Assembly (NCBI GenBank): GCA_015063165.1
Contig: SUSZ01000025.1
Span: forward strand, 1 to 36,814
Length of the DNA stretch: 36,814 nt
Source: Thermoplasmata archaeon
Lineage (GTDB): Archaea; Thermoplasmatota; Thermoplasmata; Methanomassiliicoccales; Methanomethylophilaceae
Direction: 5' to 3'
Shown: positions 695 to 36,814 of the stretch, piece after piece
How positions within the stretch are numbered: position 1 is the stretch's first letter
How the letters are laid out: each line of letters begins with the position of its first letter
Notes under the pieces: model-generated
What the model was told of the DNA's origin: nothing
The model's input: the letters and a program-made list of their open reading frames with translations, nothing else
Databases searched by the model: none
Made by a program: the position numbers and the translations under genes

Positions 695-756
695 TTCATA
701 TCCCGAAATGAATTAGACGTTTTGAATATTTAATGAATTTGCCTTAAATTAGTATA

Positions 757-774
757 TTATTGAGTCTACAATAA
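757..774. promoter_or_regulatory. Palindromic operator-like site upstream of the first USP gene
   Basis: Perfect 6-bp inverted repeat TTATTG-AGTCTA-CAATAA. The right arm continues as CAATAAAAAT. It matches, in sequence, spacer length and distance to the start codon, the palindrome at 2602-2627 upstream of the second USP gene. On the coding (minus) strand both read ATTTTTATTG-N6-CAATAA. It sits upstream of the TATA-like element, so a DNA-binding activator or repressor is plausible. The function is inferred. Confidence 0.55.
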
Positions 775-864
775 AAATCGTGACCGTCTCCGCATTAATG
801 GAATCGGGTCATTAAAAATGATGCATAGACAATAAAATGGTGGATGAGTGTTCTCGACAGAAAC

Positions 865-2022
865 TCATCTAAAGAGCCTAAAACCAGGTTTGACAGTCAG
901 CAGCAACACAATGCTTTTTATAGGTGAATCTTCCCAGTCGCGCCCGTACTGCGCTACGAACCTGTACTCCCCCGGGGTGTCCGCGGCCAGCTTGTAGATC
1001 GTCGTTCCTCCGGCTCCGCATATGCTCTTGTTCCTGGTGTCGGAGACGTAGCTCTCCTTCACATGCAGGCCGCCGTCGTCAACAACCTTCCATTTGAATC
1101 CTGTGGTGGGGTTGGACTTGAGCTTGAGGACGTATTCCTTCCTGACCCTGGTCTCCCCCTTGACGGTCATGGGTTCCGGAAGGGCAGCCGTCTTGGTACC
1201 GTTCCCTGCAGGCTCGGTGGCTGTCAGGACGACCTCCAGGGAGTTTATCCCTTGTTCCTCCCATGGGCGCATATAGACGGCATGAAGGACGTAGGTCCCT
1301 GGGGCTCTGGCGGTCATCTCGAAGATATGCTTCCCGCCGACTCCGCATAGGTAGCCCGGATTGGGGTCGGATTCGTACCTGTCTTCGCATATGAGGCCCC
1401 CGTCGTCCACGACGACCCATCTGAAGCCCGTGGTGATGTTGGCGTCCATGGTCAAGGAAACAGTCTTTCCGACGACCGTCTCTACCTTCTTCCTGTTCTC
1501 TACAGGTTCTACCTTGAGGTTCAGAGCGAGCATTTTTTCGGAGCGGGAGAGCAGCAACCTGTATTCCCCCGGAGGGCCTGCCTTCAGATTCAGGACCGGC
1601 CTATTCTGCTCGTCGATCCCCGCTTCGCATTCTATGCCGTCATCGTGGGCGACCTCCCAAGGTTCTCCTGGCTCCTCGGACAAGACCACGGACAGGTTGA
1701 ATCCTTCCCATGTTTGCTGATACAAGCTGTCGCATTGGGGGAACACGTACAGGTCCACCTCGAAGGTGTCTCCGATCTCGTCGGGAGAGCGCTCGCTCTG
1801 AAGTATGAATATGTGTCTTCCGGGAATGTCGGATCCGACCGCATAGAACGTGGTGCCTCCTACCCCGTCCAGGCAGCCAGGGTTGTCATCGGGCTCGTAC
1901 CAGCTCTTGTAGCTCAGCCCGCCGTCGGACTTCACCTTCCATTCGTAGCCAGTGGTCGGGTTGGTTTCCAGATTGAAAACGAACTGTTCGCCGATCGGGA
2001 CGGAGCCTTTGAGGACTGCCAT
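865..2022 (-). CDS. Multi-domain chagasin-like (inhibitor family I42) cysteine protease inhibitor
   Basis: A 385-residue protein with three copies of the chagasin signature. Domain 1: NPTTGYEW at 21-28 and GVGG at 53-56. Domain 2: ITTGFRW at 196-202, GVGG at 227-230 and MRPWE at 251-255. Domain 3: NPTTGFKW at 304-311, GAGG at 336-339 and GRDWE at 360-364. In chagasin these three loops plug the active site of papain-type cysteine proteases. Residues about 101-175 between domains 1 and 2 look like another beta-rich unit without the loops. No signal peptide or membrane segment is visible, so the protein is predicted cytoplasmic, which is unusual because many family members are secreted. It lies between two stress-protein genes on the same strand. 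Start MAVLKGSV at 2022; stop TGA. The target protease is unknown. Confidence 0.85.
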   Translation of the reverse strand: MAVLKGSVPIGEQFVFNLETNPTTGYEWKVKSDGGLSYKSWYEPDDNPGCLDGVGGTTFYAVGSDIPGRHIFILQSERSPDEIGDTFEVDLYVFPQCDSLYQQTWEGFNLSVVLSEEPGEPWEVAHDDGIECEAGIDEQNRPVLNLKAGPPGEYRLLLSRSEKMLALNLKVEPVENRKKVETVVGKTVSLTMDANITTGFRWVVVDDGGLICEDRYESDPNPGYLCGVGGKHIFEMTARAPGTYVLHAVYMRPWEEQGINSLEVVLTATEPAGNGTKTAALPEPMTVKGETRVRKEYVLKLKSNPTTGFKWKVVDDGGLHVKESYVSDTRNKSICGAGGTTIYKLAADTPGEYRFVAQYGRDWEDSPIKSIVLLLTVKPGFRLFR

Positions 2023-2134
2023 GGCTGGGAATCACCACCGATAAAGAAAACTGTTGTCTCGGCGGGCGGAGGCACAAGGCTATATGATACCTCCGTCGCG
2101 CCGATTTAAAAAAGATAGCGTGATGCTTGGGCTA

Positions 2135-2542
2135 TCAGCTCTTGACTACCATCGTTGCGCATTTCGACATCCGTGTCAGGGAATCGGATACGCTTCCTAG
2201 CAGCATCCTGGAGACTCCCTTGCGGTTGCGCGATCCGCATACGACGAAATCATAGCTGCGAGACAAGGATGCGATGTCTCTGGCTGCATGGCCTACGGTC
2301 ACCTTGAACTTGATATCAACCCCGGCTTCGTCGGCCATGGATCTGACGTTGGAGAACACGTCTCTTGCCATGACATCGACTTCACTGAGGGAATAGAACG
2401 AAGGACTCAGCTTGAAGCCGATTTCCTTCACGTACACCGCGGTTATGCTCCTGTTCGATTCTTTGGCCATCGATATGGCCTTCCGTACCGCCGGAATGCT
2501 CGATTTGGTCCCGTCGACCGCTAGGAGGATTTTCTCACCCAT
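2135..2542 (-). CDS. Universal stress protein (UspA family), altered nucleotide motif
   Basis: A 135-residue UspA protein, the same length as the copy at 287-694 and clearly its paralogue (MGEKILLAVDGT start, GSVSDSLT near the end). The ATP motif reads GSRN-x9-GS: the second glycine of G-2x-G-9x-G(S/T) is replaced by Asn, so nucleotide binding may be weakened or changed relative to its neighbour. It ends in TGA. It is divergent from the aconitase gene; the 205-bp spacer carries the palindrome at 2602-2627, centred 72.5 bp from this ATG, and a TATA-like TTAATATTCC downstream of it. Confidence 0.9.
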   Translation of the reverse strand: MGEKILLAVDGTKSSIPAVRKAISMAKESNRSITAVYVKEIGFKLSPSFYSLSEVDVMARDVFSNVRSMADEAGVDIKFKVTVGHAARDIASLSRSYDFVVCGSRNRKGVSRMLLGSVSDSLTRMSKCATMVVKS

Positions 2543-2601
2543 CTCGCATCACTATGTAGAAATTTGAGTATGGAATATTAAAAACATTCATCTGTGAATG
2601 A

Positions 2602-2627
2602 ATTTTTATTGTAATCGCAATAAAAAT
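2602..2627. promoter_or_regulatory. Palindromic operator-like site between the second USP and aconitase genes
   Basis: Perfect 10-bp inverted repeat ATTTTTATTG-TAATCG-CAATAAAAAT with a 6-nt spacer. A further half-site CAATAAAAA lies at 2638-2646. It is the longer version of the palindrome at 757-774 and has nearly the same distance to its USP start codon (72.5 against 71.5 bp). Because the spacer is divergent it could also affect the aconitase promoter, whose likely TATA (CATATACC) is near 2709-2716. A second short inverted repeat, CATTCA-TCTG-TGAATG, lies at 2585-2600. Confidence 0.6.
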
Positions 2628-2747: not shown

Positions 2748-5381
2748 ATGGCAGAGATCGGAGAATGCATGAAGACGATTTCCACCGCGGAGGGGGACGT
2801 CTGTGTATACAGCCTCAGGGAGCTGGAGTCGAAAGGCATAATCAAGAACCTGTCCAAGATGCCGTACAGCATCAAGGTCATCGTCGAATCCATGCTGAGG
2901 CAGAGGGACGGAAAGCTCGTGACCGACGAGGACGTCATCACGGCAGCATCCTGGAATCCGACCGAGAACACGGACCGCGACATACCCTGGATACCTGCCA
3001 GGGTTCTGCTCCAGGACCTCACCGGCGGAGCCGCGGTCGCGGATCTGGCATCCATGAGGGACGCCGTTGCGGCCATGGGCAAAGACCCCGAGCTCATCAA
3101 CCCGCTCGTTCCTGTCGATCTGGTCATCGACCACTCCGTGAACACCGATTTCGCCGGAAGGGACGATGCAAAGGAGCTCAACGAGAAGCTCGACTTCGAG
3201 AGGAACCAGGAGAGGTACGCCCTCTTCAAATGGGCCCAGAGGTCCTTCAAGAACTTCCGCGCGGTGCCTCCCGGGAACGGAATCTGCCATCAGGTCAACC
3301 TCGAGTACCTCTCTCCTCTCGTCCACGTGAAGGAGAAGGACGGGAAGAAGATCGCTTATCCGGATTCCTGCTTCGGAACCGACTCGCACACCACCCAGAT
3401 CGACGGATTGGGAGTCGTGGGATGGGGAGTCGGAGGAATAGAGGCGGAGGCCGTCATGGTCGGCCAGCCCAGCTACATGAAGCTGCCCGATGTCATCGGA
3501 TTCAGGCTCACCGGAGAGCTCAGACCCGGCATCACCGCCACCGACCTGGTCCTCACCGTAGTCCAGATGCTCAGGAAGAAGGGAGTCGTAGGAAAGTTCG
3601 TTGAGTTCTACGGACCCGGATACAAGAACCTCGATCTCGCCGACAGGGCGACCATCGCCAACATGGGACCCGAGTACGGAGCTACCATGGGATTCTTCCC
3701 CGTCGATGAGAAGACGATCGAGTATCTGAAGCTCAGCGGAAGGGACCTGGACCACATCGACACCGTCGAGAAATACATGAAGGAGCAGACGATGTGGTAC
3801 GACGGCGAGCCCGAGTACACCGACGGAATCGAGCTGGACCTCGCCACAGTCGAGCCCTGCCTAGCCGGCCACAAGAGGCCCCAGGACAGGATCCTCCTCT
3901 CCGAGATGAAGGAGAAGTTCGCCGAGACCCTCACCGCCCTGGGCGTCGAGGAGCAGAAGAAGCCCGTCGCGGGAGAGCTCGGAGACGGTTCGCTCGTCAT
4001 CGCTTCCATCACCTCCTGTACCAACACGGCCAATCCGTCCGTGATGATCGCCGCCGGTCTGGTCGCGAAGAAGGCCGCCGAGCTCGGACTCAAGCCTAAG
4101 GATTACGTCAAGACATCGCTGGCGCCCGGTTCCAGGGTCGTCACCGAGTACCTCAGGAACTCCGGGCTGCTCGTTTATCTCGAGAAGCTGGGATTCCAGG
4201 TCTGCGGATACGGATGCATGACCTGCATAGGGAACTCCGGACCCCTGTCCGATGCTGTCAGCAACTCCATCAGGGCCAACGATCTTGTTGTCGCCGCCGT
4301 CGCATCCAGCAACAGGAACTTCGAGGGCCGTATCCATCCGCTCGTCAGGGCCAACTACCTCGCCTCGCCCCCTCTCGTCGTGGCCTTCGCCATCGCAGGA
4401 AGGGTCGACATCGACATGGACAAGGAGCCTCTGGCTGTCGTCGACGGCAAGGAGGTCTACCTCAAGGACATCTGGCCCGCGGACTGGGAGATCGAGAAGC
4501 TCGTCGATGAATATGTCACCAGGAGCACCTTCGTCTCGAAGTACAAGAACATCTTCAAGGGATCCGAGAGGTGGGACGCCGTCAAGTGCAACGATTCTCC
4601 TCTCTTCTCCTGGGACGAGAACTCCACATACATCAGGAACCCTCCGTTCTTCGACGACATCTTCGAGGAGCCCGAGATAAAGAGCATAAGCAGGGCCAGG
4701 TGCCTCGCCAAGCTCGGAGATTCTATCACAACCGACCACATCTCGCCCGCAGGAGCATTCGCTGCCGACTCGGACGCAGGAAGGTACCTTCTGTCCAAAG
4801 GCGTGAAGAAGGAGGACTTCAACTCCTACGGTTCCAGAAGGGCCAACCACGAGGTCATGGTCCGCGGAACCTTCGCTAACGTCAGGCTGAAGAACCAGCT
4901 CGTCCCCGGAACCGAGGGAAGCAGGTCCGTCTATCTCCCCGACGGCTCCGTCGACACCATATTCGAGACCTCCCGCAAGTACGAGGAGGACATGACCCCC
5001 CTGATCGTCCTCGCCGGAAAGGAGTACGGGACCGGAAGCTCCAGGGACTGGGCAGCGAAAGGACCCCTCCTCCTCGGAGTGAAGGCGGTCATCGCGGAGT
5101 CCTTCGAGAGGATCCACAGGTCCAACCTGGTCGGAATGGGGATAGTCCCGCTGCAGTTCCTGCCCGGACAGAACTGCGAGACCCTCCGCCTGGATGGCGC
5201 TGAGACATTCGACATCGACCTGGAGGACCTCGAGCCCAAGGGAACCGTCAGGGTCACCGCATACAAGAACGGCAAGAAGCTGGAGTTCGACACCATCTGC
5301 AGGGTGGACATCGATGCCGAGATCGAGTACATCGCGAACGGCGGGATCCTCCAGTACGTCCTGAGAAGGATGGCCGAGTAA
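2748..5381 (+). CDS. acnA: Aconitate hydratase (AcnA/IRP type)
   Basis: An 877-residue aconitase, the usual length for the AcnA/IRP1 class. It interconverts citrate and isocitrate through a [4Fe-4S] cluster, feeding 2-oxoglutarate and glutamate synthesis in a methanogen's partial TCA pathway. The cluster cysteines are visible in SITSCTNTANPS and GYGCMTCIGNSG. The swivel domain has GKEYGTGSSRDWAAKG and RIHRSNLVGMG, typical of substrate-binding Ser/Arg residues. I chose the ATG at 2748 (MAEIGECMKTIS) because the frame upstream is A+T rich and does not look coding, and because a TATA-like CATATACC lies about 35 bp before it. Stop is TAA, one of only two in the window. A hairpin terminator follows. 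Confidence 0.95.
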   Translation: MAEIGECMKTISTAEGDVCVYSLRELESKGIIKNLSKMPYSIKVIVESMLRQRDGKLVTDEDVITAASWNPTENTDRDIPWIPARVLLQDLTGGAAVADLASMRDAVAAMGKDPELINPLVPVDLVIDHSVNTDFAGRDDAKELNEKLDFERNQERYALFKWAQRSFKNFRAVPPGNGICHQVNLEYLSPLVHVKEKDGKKIAYPDSCFGTDSHTTQIDGLGVVGWGVGGIEAEAVMVGQPSYMKLPDVIGFRLTGELRPGITATDLVLTVVQMLRKKGVVGKFVEFYGPGYKNLDLADRATIANMGPEYGATMGFFPVDEKTIEYLKLSGRDLDHIDTVEKYMKEQTMWYDGEPEYTDGIELDLATVEPCLAGHKRPQDRILLSEMKEKFAETLTALGVEEQKKPVAGELGDGSLVIASITSCTNTANPSVMIAAGLVAKKAAELGLKPKDYVKTSLAPGSRVVTEYLRNSGLLVYLEKLGFQVCGYGCMTCIGNSGPLSDAVSNSIRANDLVVAAVASSNRNFEGRIHPLVRANYLASPPLVVAFAIAGRVDIDMDKEPLAVVDGKEVYLKDIWPADWEIEKLVDEYVTRSTFVSKYKNIFKGSERWDAVKCNDSPLFSWDENSTYIRNPPFFDDIFEEPEIKSISRARCLAKLGDSITTDHISPAGAFAADSDAGRYLLSKGVKKEDFNSYGSRRANHEVMVRGTFANVRLKNQLVPGTEGSRSVYLPDGSVDTIFETSRKYEEDMTPLIVLAGKEYGTGSSRDWAAKGPLLLGVKAVIAESFERIHRSNLVGMGIVPLQFLPGQNCETLRLDGAETFDIDLEDLEPKGTVRVTAYKNGKKLEFDTICRVDIDAEIEYIANGGILQYVLRRMAE

Positions 5382-10106: not shown

Positions 10107-12236
10107 TCAGCGCTTGCCGGACCTGCTCCTCATCACGAAGAAGGCGACGACGAGCAAGATCACGATGGCGGCGATGATACCGACGTACAGCAGGGTGTTG
10201 TCGGCAGGTGCTTCCTTGACGGTCACGTCACACGAAGCACTGTATCCTCCGTCCACCGTAGTCGCAGTGATGGTGGCGTTCCCCACCGCGACAGCTTTGA
10301 CGTTCCCCTCCTGGTCGACAGTGGCGATCTTCTCGTCGCTGGACTTCCAGGTCACGGACTTGTCGTCCGCGTTGTCGGGACCGACGGTCGGAACGAGCTT
10401 GACGGATTTTCCGACGTTGACGTCCGCCTTGACCTTGTCGAGGGTTATGCTGTCGACGTGGACGATCTGGTGCTCGGTGACGGTCACGGCGCACGAGGTG
10501 GTCTTGCTTCCGTCGTTGGTCGTGACGGTGACGGTGGCGGTTCCCGCGGCGACGCCCTTCACGATCCCGTTGTGATCGACGGTGGCGACGTCAGGGTTGC
10601 TGGTGGACCAGGCGACGGTCTTGTCGGTGGCGTTGTCGGGGAGGACGGTGGCGACAAGCTTCATGACCTTGCCCTCCTCGACGGTAATCTCGGTCTTGTC
10701 GAGGGCCACTTCGGTCACGGCGACGGGGTTGACGGTCACGGCGCATTCAGCGGTCTTGGCTCCGTCCACGGTGGTTACCGTGACGGTCGCGCTTCCCACT
10801 CCGACTCCCGTCACGTTGCCTTCCGAGTCGACAGCGGCGATGTTCTCGTCGCTGGACTTCCAGGTCACGGACTTGTCGTCCGCGTTGCCGGGGAGGACGG
10901 TGGCATTCAGCTTCTCGGTGTTTCCGATAAGGACTGCGATCTCGGACTTGTCGAGCTCGACGCTGGTGACGTGGACGGCCTGCCTCACGGCGACGTCGCA
11001 CACGGCGGTTTTCTTGCCGTCGTGGGTGGTGACGGTGATCTTGGCGGTGCCGGCGGCGACCGCGGTCACGTATCCTTCCTGGTCGACGGTGGCGACCTTC
11101 TCGTTGTCGGAGGACCAGCTGACCAGCTTGTCGGTGGCGTCCTCGGGGAGGACGGTGGCGTTCAGCTTCTCGGACCCTCCCTCATTGATCTCGAGGGAGG
11201 TCTTGTCGAGCTTGACGTCGGTGACGTAGACGGCCTCGACAACCACGACGCAGAACGCGCTCTTGTAGCTGCCGGGGTTGGTTGCGGTGACGGTGGCGAT
11301 CCCGGGACCAACCGCTTCCACGCGTCCGTCCTTGTCGACGGTGACGACGCTCGTGTCGTTGGATGACCACTCGATCGTCTTGTCGGCGGTGGCGTTGTCG
11401 GGGGTGATGGTGATTATCAGAGTGTCGTGGTCCCCGACCGTGAGGTTCAGCGAGGTCACGTCGAGGGTTATGCTCTCTATGGGGATGACCTTGTCCAGAA
11501 CGGTCACGTCGCATGTGCCCTCCTTGCCGCCGTAATCGGTCGTGACGGTGATCTTGGCGGTGCCGGCGGCGACCGCGGTCACGGTTCCAAAGATATCGAC
11601 ATTCGCAACCTCCGGGTTGTCGCTGGTCCAGATGAAGTCAATGTAGGTGGCGTCCTCGGGGTGGGCGGTGGCCTTGAACGTGTAGGTCTCCTTCACGGCG
11701 AGAACGAGAGACGTCCTGTCGAGGGTCACGTTTGTGACTGGCGTGATGTCGGGATCGACAACGATGGTCGCAGTGCCTTCCAGGTAAATGCCTACTTCGT
11801 CTCCGCTGGCGTTGACGGCTTCACGGTTATCCATATGGAGCGGGAGGTTCATCCCGGCGGTATCGTCAGCCACATCGAAAACGAAGGTAAGGATCGTGCC
11901 TATGATTGTGACGTTGTCATCGGCCTTGCAGACGATGGTGCATGGGCTGCTGAGATCCTTTTCAGGGAAGACTGACATAAGCGTGCCTTTTCTGATCTCC
12001 TTCAGCGTAAGGCCTTCTTCGTAGTCGAGATCGAAGGAAAGGGAGCTGAACCCCGTTCCTTGCACATCTACAATCTCCATAGGGACTTCTACGTCCACAG
12101 CGCCTGCTCCTACCTTCACTTCCGGAATCTCCAAACTCACCATGTTGTCGTCCGCATCCGACTCGGAAACGGGGACTAGTGAGATGGAGACGGCCGTGAT
12201 TGCGAGAATCATGGCGATTATTCCATATTTGCTCAT
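10107..12236 (-). CDS. Secreted membrane-anchored protein: cohesin-like domain plus six BIG2 Ig-like repeats
   Basis: A 709-residue surface protein. Residues 1-29 are a signal peptide (MSKYGIIAMILAITAVSISL, then a likely cleavage site before DADDN). Residues about 30-155 resemble a cohesin fold: VDVEVPMEIVDVQGTGFSSL, LDYEEGLTLKEIRKGTL, GTILTFVFDV. Then six BIG2-type Ig-like repeats of about 83 residues each, with the pattern VxLDKxxxxVxxG, TVxPxxATDKxVxWSSxxxxVAxVDxxGxVxxVxxGxAxxTVTTxDG. A C-terminal helix (LLYVGIIAAIVILLVVAFFV) and basic MRSRSGKR anchor it, with the repeats outside. I chose the ATG at 12236 because it starts the signal peptide; an ATG at 12275 is possible. A TATA-like TTAAATATC lies near 12314-12322. 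The likely role is adhesion or docking at the cell surface. Stop TGA, followed by a G/C hairpin (about 10081-10097). Confidence 0.8.
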   Translation of the reverse strand: MSKYGIIAMILAITAVSISLVPVSESDADDNMVSLEIPEVKVGAGAVDVEVPMEIVDVQGTGFSSLSFDLDYEEGLTLKEIRKGTLMSVFPEKDLSSPCTIVCKADDNVTIIGTILTFVFDVADDTAGMNLPLHMDNREAVNASGDEVGIYLEGTATIVVDPDITPVTNVTLDRTSLVLAVKETYTFKATAHPEDATYIDFIWTSDNPEVANVDIFGTVTAVAAGTAKITVTTDYGGKEGTCDVTVLDKVIPIESITLDVTSLNLTVGDHDTLIITITPDNATADKTIEWSSNDTSVVTVDKDGRVEAVGPGIATVTATNPGSYKSAFCVVVVEAVYVTDVKLDKTSLEINEGGSEKLNATVLPEDATDKLVSWSSDNEKVATVDQEGYVTAVAAGTAKITVTTHDGKKTAVCDVAVRQAVHVTSVELDKSEIAVLIGNTEKLNATVLPGNADDKSVTWKSSDENIAAVDSEGNVTGVGVGSATVTVTTVDGAKTAECAVTVNPVAVTEVALDKTEITVEEGKVMKLVATVLPDNATDKTVAWSTSNPDVATVDHNGIVKGVAAGTATVTVTTNDGSKTTSCAVTVTEHQIVHVDSITLDKVKADVNVGKSVKLVPTVGPDNADDKSVTWKSSDEKIATVDQEGNVKAVAVGNATITATTVDGGYSASCDVTVKEAPADNTLLYVGIIAAIVILLVVAFFVMRSRSGKR

Positions 12237-12275
12237 ATGATCAAACTCCGCAGCACACAATGGTGCTGGAATCAT

Positions 12276-34433: not shown

Positions 34434-34988
34434 ATGGCCGAAGCGAACAAGCTTGGTAGAAGAGTAAGCAAGTACAGAGAACAGCTCGAACTGACTCAGG
34501 AGCAGCTCGCAGTAAACTCCGGACTTGACCTCGCTCTAATCAAGGATGTCGAGGAGGGTCGCACGTACCCGCCGGTCGGCCAGCTCATAAAACTTTCCCG
34601 TGCTCTGGGACAGAGGCTCGGCACTTTCATGGACGACCAGTTCCATCCAGACCCTATCGTGGTCAGAAGGTCGGAGAGGAAGGAGGAAGCATCCTCCAAG
34701 GGCGATTTCGGTAACTACCAGTACTTCCCCCTCGGGAAGGGTAAGACCGACAGGCACATGGAGCCCCTCTTCATAAGGATGGAGAAGAGCGACAAAGAGG
34801 AATACGCGATCCACGAGGGAGAGGAATTCATCATTGTCGTTTCCGGAAGGGTTATCGTGAAATACGGCAAGCAGGAGACGATCCTGGATGAGGGCGACAG
34901 CGCCTACTACAACTCGGTCGTCCCCCACTATGTCGGATGCGTCGACGGTCCCGCTGAGATATACGCGGTGCTGTACGCCCCCATCTGA
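34434..34988 (+). CDS. XRE-family regulator with C-terminal cupin
   Basis: A 184-residue protein: an XRE helix-turn-helix at about 8-64 (RVSKYREQLELTQEQLAVNS, IKDVEEGRTYPPVGQLIKLS) and a cupin at about 110-184 (HEGEEFIIVVSGRVIVKYG, GDSAYYNSVVPHYV). Such proteins sense a small ligand and control a neighbouring metabolic gene. It is 9 nt from the acyl-CoA synthetase gene and probably in one operon with it, so it likely regulates it and senses its substrate or product. Promoter TATTTTAA near 34392-34399. Stop TGA. Confidence 0.93.
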   Translation: MAEANKLGRRVSKYREQLELTQEQLAVNSGLDLALIKDVEEGRTYPPVGQLIKLSRALGQRLGTFMDDQFHPDPIVVRRSERKEEASSKGDFGNYQYFPLGKGKTDRHMEPLFIRMEKSDKEEYAIHEGEEFIIVVSGRVIVKYGKQETILDEGDSAYYNSVVPHYVGCVDGPAEIYAVLYAPI

Positions 34989-34997
34989 GGCGATAGC

Positions 34998-36659
34998 ATG
35001 CCGTGTGTTCCAAGGGAGAATATCACCAGTGACGAGAGGCTGGGCGATCTGCTGGACAAATGCGTCCGCGAGCACCCCGACAACGACGCCATAGTCTACG
35101 TGGACAGGGAACTGAGGCTCTCCTGGACCGAGTGGGGTGCCGAGGTCGATCTCGTGGCCAAAGGCCTGATGGCGATGGGAGTGAAGAAAGGGGAGAAGGT
35201 GGCCATATGGGCAACCAACGTCCCCGACTGGATCACCCTCATGTTCGCCACCGCGAAGATCGGAGCCATCCTCCTCACTATCAACACCAACTACAGGAGA
35301 GCGGAGCTCGACTACGTCCTCAAGCAGTCCGACATGGAGTACCTGTTTCTCATAGACGGGGTCAGGGACGTGGACTACGTCGAGACCGTATACGACCTGA
35401 TCCCCGAGATGAAGTTGCAGCCCAGGGAGACCTTCCACTCCGAGAAGTATCCACATCTGAAGAAAGTCGTCTTCCTCGGCCCTCAGAAGCGCCGCGGAAT
35501 GTACTCCATGAACGAGGTCAAGTCCCTCGCGGTCAATGTCACCGAAGAGGAGTATGCCGAGAGAAAGAACTCCGTGGACGTTCACGACGTCACCATGATG
35601 CAGTACACCTCCGGTACCACCGGATTCCCCAAGGGAGTCATGCTGAGCCACTTCAACATCGCGAACGACGGATACTGGCTCGGAGCGAACATGAACTACG
35701 GCGCAGAAGACCGTCTGTGCATCACCGTTCCCCTGTTCCACTGCTTCGGATGCGTCTTGGGCGTCATGGCTTGCATCAACCACTGTGTCACCATGGTGTT
35801 CTGCGAGGTCTTCAATCCCGTCGATGTGATGACGTCGATCGAGGTCGAGAGGTGCACCTCCGTGTACGGCGTGCCCACGATGTACATCAGCATGCTGAAC
35901 CACAGGCTGTTCAACAAGTTCGACTTCTCCTCCCTGAGGACCGGCATCATGGCCGGATCCCCCTGCCCCATCAAGGCGATGGAGGAGGTTGTCGACAAGA
36001 TGAACATGAAGGAGATCACCATCGTCTACGGACTGACCGAGGCGTCCCCCGGAATGACCCAGACCAGGTACGACGAGCCTTCGATGGAGAAGAAATGCTC
36101 CTCTGTAGGAAAGAAGCTCCAGGGAGTCGACACCGTCATCCTGGATCCCGAGACGTACGAGCCCTGCCCTGACGGAGTCATCGGCGAGTTCTGCTGCAAG
36201 GGGTACAACGTCATGAAGGGCTACTACAAGATGCCTGAGGAGACGGCGAAGGTTATCGACAAGAACGGATACCTCCACTCCGGAGATCTGGGATACAGGG
36301 ACTCCGATGGGTATTTCTACGTCACCGGAAGGATCAAGGACATGATCATCCGCGGAGGAGAGAACATCTACCCCAAGGAGGTAGAGGACTTCCTCTACCA
36401 CTGCCCCGGAATCAGGGATGTGCAGGTGGTCGGAGTTCAGAGCGAGAAGTACGGCGAGCAGGTCGCGGCCTTCATCATCAAGGAGCCCGACTCGGATCTC
36501 ACCGAGCAGGACGTCTTCGACTACTGCAAGGGACAGATCGCCTGGTACAAGTCTCCCAAGTTCGTCCAGTTCGTCGACGAGTTCCCTCTTAACGCTGCCG
36601 GAAAGATCAAGAAGTTCGTGCTCCGCGAGATGGCGCACGAGATCTGGCCCAACGCTTGA
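34998..36659 (+). CDS. AMP-dependent acyl-CoA synthetase (fatty-acid/acyl ligase family)
   Basis: A 553-residue adenylate-forming ligase that activates a carboxylic acid with ATP and transfers it to CoA. AMP-binding core YTSGTTGFPKGVMLSH, aromatic motif VYGLTEASPGM, GDLGYRDSDGYFYVTGRIKDMIIRGG hinge, and the catalytic Lys in LNAAGKIKKFVLRE. The acid cannot be told from sequence; medium- or long-chain acids are most usual for this subgroup. It follows the XRE-cupin regulator by 9 nt. It ends TGA and is followed by a terminator hairpin. Confidence 0.94.
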   Translation: MPCVPRENITSDERLGDLLDKCVREHPDNDAIVYVDRELRLSWTEWGAEVDLVAKGLMAMGVKKGEKVAIWATNVPDWITLMFATAKIGAILLTINTNYRRAELDYVLKQSDMEYLFLIDGVRDVDYVETVYDLIPEMKLQPRETFHSEKYPHLKKVVFLGPQKRRGMYSMNEVKSLAVNVTEEEYAERKNSVDVHDVTMMQYTSGTTGFPKGVMLSHFNIANDGYWLGANMNYGAEDRLCITVPLFHCFGCVLGVMACINHCVTMVFCEVFNPVDVMTSIEVERCTSVYGVPTMYISMLNHRLFNKFDFSSLRTGIMAGSPCPIKAMEEVVDKMNMKEITIVYGLTEASPGMTQTRYDEPSMEKKCSSVGKKLQGVDTVILDPETYEPCPDGVIGEFCCKGYNVMKGYYKMPEETAKVIDKNGYLHSGDLGYRDSDGYFYVTGRIKDMIIRGGENIYPKEVEDFLYHCPGIRDVQVVGVQSEKYGEQVAAFIIKEPDSDLTEQDVFDYCKGQIAWYKSPKFVQFVDEFPLNAAGKIKKFVLREMAHEIWPNA

Positions 36660-36665
36660 AACCTT

Positions 36666-36687
36666 GGCGGGGAGACCCGCCTTTTTT
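36666..36687 (+). terminator. Hairpin and T-run terminator of the acyl-CoA synthetase gene
   Basis: GGCGGG-GAGA-CCCGCC, a perfect 6-bp stem with a GAGA loop (36666-36681), followed by six T (36682-36687). The next base begins an intron-like sequence, so the terminator is also the probable insertion site. Confidence 0.8.
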
Positions 36688-36814
36688 GTGTGCCCAGCAC
36701 ACATGGTTGGAACCCTTCGGGTTCCTTCTCAAACCACCTTGAGAATCTTGGGGGTGGAAGTCCCCTACGGCCCCTTGGGGAGGGAACCGTTAGTCAGAGG
36801 CAAGGTTGCGCCCG
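36688..36814 (+). mobile_element. 5' end of a group II intron (IIC-like), cut by the window edge
   Basis: Begins GTGTG, the group II 5' consensus GUGYG, and continues GTGTGCCCAGCACAC, similar to the opening of bacterial IIC introns (GTGTGCCCGGCA). Further on it has GGGTGGAAGTCCCC, then CCGTTAGTC and GGCAAGGTTGCGCCCG, resembling domain I segments of the class. Hairpins GGAACC-CTTCG-GGTTCC and TCTCAA-N6-TTGAGA are visible. It starts directly after the T-run of a terminator, the known preferred site of IIC introns. The reverse transcriptase (intron-encoded protein) and domains V/VI would lie outside the window. Confidence 0.65.

Follow-up and report, generated by a model that had tools for sequence, protein, structure and literature searches.

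A conserved palindrome upstream of universal stress protein genes and a candidate MarR-type regulon of methyl-compound methanogenesis in Candidatus Methanomethylophilaceae

Background

The Methanomassiliicoccales are important methanogens of the rumen and gut, which form methane from methylamines and methanol. In Methanosarcina, methanogenic pathways are under the global regulator MreA, a member of the TrmB family. Regulators of the MarR family (MarR, SlyA, MepR, OhrR) bind palindromic operators of 16 to 20 bp and control their own genes; archaeal structures are available (for example, PDB 3bpv and 2eb7). An operator placed upstream of the TATA box usually means activation in archaea. The Haloferax stress regulator OxsR, which is of the TrmB type, activates when its motif is 5' of the BRE/TATA elements and represses when it is 3' of them (PMC9426492). 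The TrmB operator of Thermococcales is TACT-N3-AGTA, located at the BRE/TATA, and for MreA no binding motif has been identified, according to a review of the TrmB family (PMC4158304). Our literature search returned no described regulator or operator for methyl-based methanogenesis in Methanomassiliicoccales, and no paper on the regulon described here.

The DNA analysed is a stretch of 36,814 nucleotides, hereafter called the window, from a Thermoplasmata archaeon of the family Methanomethylophilaceae (contig SUSZ01000025.1 of assembly GCA_015063165.1; source genome designated G000, 2.28 Mb). An earlier note on this DNA had pointed to one palindrome, TTATTG-N6-CAATAA, lying at nearly the same distance upstream of two universal stress protein (USP) genes, each copy being upstream of a TATA-like element, and had proposed that it binds a stress regulator.

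Results

Two palindromes at the usp promoters

Both palindromes were recovered as exact pattern matches in the window (TTATTGAGTCTACAATAA and TTATTGTAATCGCAATAA; Table 1), as the earlier note had described. Both have the form ATTTTTATTG-N6-CAATAA when the coding (minus) strand is considered, the full sequences being ATTTTTATTG-TAGACT-CAATAA for palindrome 1 and ATTTTTATTG-CGATTA-CAATAAAAAT for palindrome 2, whose arms reach 10 bp (ATTTTTATTG-N6-CAATAAAAAT). The centres are 71.5 bp (usp1) and 72.5 bp (usp2) from the ATG, and 36 and 35.5 bp, respectively, from the centre of the TATA-like box; as the host is an archaeon, the promoters are of the BRE/TATA type. Palindrome 2 sits in the intergenic region between usp2 and the divergent aconitase gene. 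The chagasin-type inhibitor gene located between the two usp genes is not clearly a member of the regulon.

Table 1. Positions of genes, promoter elements and palindromes in the window
Feature	Position	Strand	Role and basis
usp1, universal stress protein, 135 aa	287..694	-	PF00582 E 5.1e-21; 84% identical orthologue in G020
usp1 TATA-like box TTAAATAT	726..733	-	read from sequence; six-way alignment
Palindrome 1	757-774 (757-778 with T-rich arm)	-	candidate usp1 operator; exact match, shuffles, orthologues
Chagasin-type (I42) peptidase inhibitor repeat protein, between usp1 and usp2	865..2022	-	PF09394 E 4e-48
usp2, universal stress protein, 135 aa	2135..2542	-	PF00582 E 8.9e-22
usp2 TATA-like box TTTTTAATATT	2574..2584	-	read from sequence; six-way alignment
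Palindrome 2	2602..2627 (core 2606-2623)	-	candidate usp2 operator; exact match, orthologues
acnA, aconitase, divergent from usp2; start 133.5 bp from palindrome 2	2748..5381	+	TIGR01341

When up to two mismatches were allowed, three matches were observed in the window, compared to a mean of 0.23 in dinucleotide shuffles, none of which (0/100) reached three. The whole of G000 contains four exact copies of TTATTG-N6-CAATAA and no exact copy of the mirrored control; no further copy with one mismatch was found in its 2.28 Mb. Single extra half-sites were also seen, CAATAAAAAT at 2638-2647, some 27 bp past palindrome 2, and CAATAAAAT at 829-837, some 67 bp past palindrome 1. Elsewhere in the window, positions 10107-12275 encode a probable surface protein of 722 aa, most of which consists of Big_2 Ig-like repeats (PF02368, E 8e-107), and another ORF of 722 aa is found at 34536-36704 on the minus strand.

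Conservation at the usp promoters of relatives

Thirty-one genomes of the genus were compared; apart from G000, a close orthologue of these USPs is present in four. The relatives include MAGs of Candidatus Methanomethylophilaceae and Methanomassiliicoccaceae, two of which came from the rumen and omasum of sheep, and their genes are ORF calls based on codon usage, not curated annotation. A perfect palindrome was found upstream of usp at 70.5 bp in G020 and at 72.5 bp in both G011 and G019, and a degraded form, TTG-TAAACT-CAATA, at 70.5 bp in G018. In the six-way alignment only two blocks are conserved, the palindrome and the TATA box (TTAAATA/TTTAAATA), the rest of the DNA having diverged. Gene order follows that of G000 in two ways: in G011 and G019 a single usp is divergent from aconitase with the palindrome between them, as for usp2, and in G020 usp comes after a chagasin-like gene, as for usp1. 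More distant USP genes of these genomes mostly lack the site, and consensus-type sites precede two of the other USP genes, uspB of G018 (74.5 bp) and a usp of G003 (85.5 bp). The site is thus conserved across orthologous promoters at a constant promoter distance while its flanks diverge, as is characteristic of an operator, and we regard the existence of a real, conserved docking site as close to shown.

Promoters of a second type of USP gene carry other recurring words about 60 to 80 bp upstream, namely TTGTCC(A/T)GG(A/C)T in G000 (L046, C11), G020 (L047, C63) and G018 (L044, C8), and TTGGATGYATT in G019 (L043, C19) and G011 (L045, C40). In G010 and G015, TATTGA sites also have a TTGGAT..ATCCAA palindrome in their flanks. 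These elements possibly belong to a second regulator.

A wider motif family

The palindromes are related to a wider family with the consensus wTATTGA-N4-TCAATAw. Counts of several forms were compared with controls. TTATTG-N6-CAATAA was found 10 times in the 31 genomes of the genus, compared to 0 for its mirrored form; outside the genus the count (8 compared to 5 mirrored, 71 genomes) is at background level, and the search there required the TATTGA-N4-TCAATA form. The shorter TATTG-N6-CAATA occurs 10 times in G000 and 7 times in G020 (control 0), and 47 times in the genus (control 13). These copies pointed to a stronger inner consensus, TATTGA-N4-TCAATA, whose exact form was encountered 23 times in the 31 genomes, against 0 mirrored copies and 3 copies of one permuted palindrome of the same composition, and with at most one mismatch 54 times in the five USP-clade genomes (control 4). 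A two-mismatch search of G000 gave 60 copies for 33 in the control, which is too noisy for defining a regulon.

A weight-matrix scan (score of at least 13) returned 59 sites and 0 in the control, a comparison biased by the many loci that had been chosen by the motif. Cleaner controls are the permuted-palindrome count in the genus and the loci fetched by protein similarity. Loci fetched by USP similarity only contained 6 sites, compared to a mean of 0.14 and a maximum of 1 for 59 permuted palindromes; those fetched by the MarR protein alone contained 10 distinct sites with at most one mismatch (mean 0.19, maximum 2, for 59 permuted palindromes). Some of these loci overlap those found by motif, the fetch itself being motif-free.

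Almost every copy in the five genomes that have USPs of this type is intergenic, and copies are enriched over composition-matched controls. An equal spread through coding sequences, which the earlier note had named as evidence against a regulatory site, was not seen. Few copies emerged from an order-level scan outside the family; at least one of them (L268) resembles coding sequence, and no MarR neighbour was called within 1.3 kb at three inspected copies. A few copies beside unrelated genes may be due to chance, as is probably the case for those next to an integrase-type gene and type I restriction genes in G000 (C42 and C45).

Genes adjoining the motif

The regulon lists were drawn from the pattern searches, and Pfam scans and gene order show that the targets belong largely to the machinery of methyl-compound methanogenesis and to corrinoid supply. 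Sites were found at mtmC in G000, G020, G018 and G019, the distance being 328.5 bp upstream in both G000 and G020; mtmC-mtmB is followed further along by pylS-pylB-pylC-pylD, so that the motif is upstream of this whole region. The mtbC site lies 73.5 bp (G000) or 72.5 bp (G018) upstream, a placement like that at usp; an obvious TATA box 36 bp past the site was not seen there. Other methyltransferase sites are those of mttB in G003 and of mtaC-mtaB in G026 and G030. Cobalt and corrinoid functions are represented by cbiM (CbiM) and a CbiD/tetrapyrrole-methylase pair, which adjoin motif copies, and by a RACo-type corrinoid-activation gene in G019, directly past which a site is found.

Amino-acid-type permeases have sites in G000, G020, G018, G011 and G019. 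In G000 and in G020 alike, one permease carries a pair of sites with 40 bp between them, and a second has a site at 277-284 bp in G000, G018, G011 and G019. The remaining loci include topA (63.5 and 71.5 bp in G000 and G020), an EamA transporter with two sites in G011 and G019, and, in two genomes, an ACT-domain protein gene whose site is about 54 bp away. Orthologous intergenic regions retain their wider-motif sites.

Two of the G000 loci call for a remark. Near the topA palindrome, a minus-strand ORF (L005:8957-9397, C58), which by eye looks like a nickel regulator of the NikR type, shares its DNA with the 3' half of orfX, a divergent gene call that may be mistaken. At L006:10952-11160 (C66), an ATG-started frame (MPGSKYDREIRFMAREVDRLTE) downstream of the palindrome at 10767 runs into an in-frame TAG; pyrrolysine readthrough or a short leader peptide is possible.

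The earlier note had suggested looking for an enrichment of stress genes among the motif targets. No such enrichment was seen: methyltransferase, corrinoid, permease and MarR genes make up most of the targets, and most other USP genes have no site. The regulon looks metabolic, because other members of the motif family adjoin methyltransferase, pyrrolysine, corrinoid/cobalt and permease genes and adjoin MarR genes or lie within their promoters. Of the proposal of a stress regulator, the regulator site is strongly supported, being intergenic, at a fixed distance across species and upstream of the TATA box; the part concerning stress is not.

A candidate MarR-type regulator

The candidate binder of the sites, judged from its sequence, is a MarR-type protein. 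It was placed in the MarR family because its sequence profile matches MarR structures (MarR 3s2w, E 2.5e-13; SlyA 1lj9, 6.7e-8; MepR 4l9j, 1e-5 in a search against solved structures); no equivalog cut-off of NCBIfam was reached. There are three strong MarR paralogues in G000 (C34:11084, C66:7719 and C3:11099). The C66 paralogue, the only one scored, remained below both Pfam cut-offs, with 20.6 bits for PF01978 (TrmB; cut-off 25.6) and 23.7 for MarR_2 (cut-off 27); an MreA-like TrmB identity is not supported by the former score.

The motif accompanies MarR genes in several arrangements. A copy lies between the TATA box and the start codon of a MarR gene in four genomes (G000, on C3, and G012, G019, G011), and on C66 of G000 the MarR gene adjoins the double-site permease. 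In G008 and G009 the MarR gene is located between methyltransferase and FMN-reductase genes, with the site between MarR and FMN-reductase, and the same position of the site recurs in another genus (G069, G079). In other genera as well (G064, G069 and G079; G096 and G098), a site adjoins a MarR gene from this family. The operator is thus in the promoter of the candidate regulator itself or next to its gene, as in MarR regulons. Scans upstream of MarR-1 in G000 and of its orthologue in G020 revealed no autoregulatory site. In G018, mtbC and MarR-1 stand side by side in divergent orientation and two sites separate them; in G000 (L223:1879-2944, C34) transposase-like ORFs part mtbC, with its operator at 73.5 bp, from the MarR-1 gene.

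A MarR-1 orthologue is present in all five genomes with this USP type. More generally, site-bearing genomes encode a MarR-fold regulator, with the exception of G015, which has two exact wider-motif sites and only a weak MarR match; several MarR-bearing genomes have no exact site. Exact sites occurred in 13 of the 23 genomes with a strong MarR homologue, compared to 1 of the 8 without (P = 0.04). MarR genes and sites share the methyltransferase islands, and their closeness is partly confounded by this.

Proposed mechanism and alternative explanations

Taken together, the palindromes are probably operators of a MarR-type regulator of methyl-compound methanogenesis in Candidatus Methanomethylophilaceae, with the USPs as members of its regulon. 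A broader proposal, to which we give about even chances, is that one MarR-family regulon coordinates methylotrophic methanogenesis in Methanomassiliicoccales, comprising methylamine and methanol methyltransferases, the pyrrolysine operon, permeases, cobalt uptake, topoisomerase and the two USPs, in which the regulator would repress its own promoter and activate usp, the USPs being energy-metabolism proteins. A dimeric MarR, encoded beside methylamine methyltransferase genes, would recognise wTATTGA-N4-TCAATAw and close variants. Bound between the TATA box and the start of its own gene, as in some species, it would block initiation and repress itself; bound about 36 bp upstream of the usp TATA box, its position would let it aid TBP/TFB recruitment. 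Production of the USPs would in that case accompany that of the methyl-compound methanogenesis machinery and not belong to a general stress response. Activation at usp is suggested by the position of the site; the protein might instead act there as a repressor that loops or blocks TFB.

The degenerate USP sites would be bound by the same protein as the methyltransferase sites. They have T or C where the consensus has its inner A, and the weight-matrix score of usp2 is 9.7, compared to 18-25 for the training sites; a paralogue or another factor may therefore read them. A separate regulator, as the earlier note had proposed, with a half-site similar to the one of the methyltransferase MarR through chance or shared ancestry, would also account for the inner consensus particular to USP sites (TATTGTAAACTCAATA in G019, TATTG[TC]-based elsewhere) and for their lower scores (9.7-17). 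However, the outer arms are identical, mtbC shares the 72-bp placement, consensus-type sites precede uspB of G018 and usp of G003, and MarR-1 accompanies this USP type throughout, so that we consider a separate regulator unlikely, while keeping it in view. It is also conceivable that palindrome 2 serves aconitase and not usp2, since the site separates divergent genes in G000, G011 and G019. Where the two genes are apart, however (usp1 of G000, usp of G020), the site accompanies usp, and no palindrome was found in a scan of the region upstream of G020 acn. As acn is parted from usp there, acnA is probably not the target, and regulation of aconitase instead of usp2 is very improbable.

The remaining explanations hardly deserve credence. 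An RNA hairpin or transcription terminator could be suspected from the inverted repeat, from the location of site 1 at the 3' side of the chagasin-inhibitor gene, and from weak predicted hairpins (about -6 kcal/mol), but the predicted fold of site 1 leaves the two arms unpaired, and no gene ends into site 2 or the G011 and G019 sites, which lie in divergent intergenic DNA. Moreover, every usp site is upstream of the TATA box and thus outside the usp transcript; no terminator-like site (GC stem plus T run) was found at site 1, and no Rfam family matched, and this explanation was rejected. Chance similarity inherited by gene duplication, without function, was rejected on the mirrored, permuted and orthologue tests: usp1 and usp2 are indeed paralogues (53% protein identity), yet the arms stayed perfect while the flanks diverged, between species too, and the counts far exceed both controls. 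The earlier note had held that neither chance nor duplication alone would be expected to give the shared site. The shuffles and the mirrored and permuted controls argue against chance; as to duplication, inheritance with the duplicated gene followed by selection could explain the sharing, since orthologues show such retention of an inherited site.

Discussion

With an operator defined, a regulator proposed and target promoters listed, the control of methyl-based methane formation can be tested directly, and otherwise unexplained USP genes would be tied to this metabolism. The operator, which is real and conserved, is ordinary in kind; our literature search returned no description of the proposed regulon.

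The likeness to the MarR family lies in the alignment of the candidate with MarR structures, in an AT-rich palindromic operator, and in the location of this operator over the regulator's own transcription start in four genomes. The operator sequence differs, however, as do the gene content (corrinoid methyltransferases, pyrrolysine genes, CbiM and USPs) and the position upstream of the TATA box, which is likely an activating one. Methanosarcina MreA resembles the candidate in having methylotrophic methanogenesis genes as targets and a winged helix, whereas the candidate fits MarR better than TrmB, both Pfam scores being below cut-off. With OxsR it shares the position geometry invoked here for the usp and MarR promoters; the CG-rich OxsR motif, in contrast, is tied to hypochlorite stress. 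Thermococcales TrmB likewise exemplifies an archaeal winged-helix regulator with a palindromic operator, from which the present system differs in sequence, spacing and regulon (PMC4158304).
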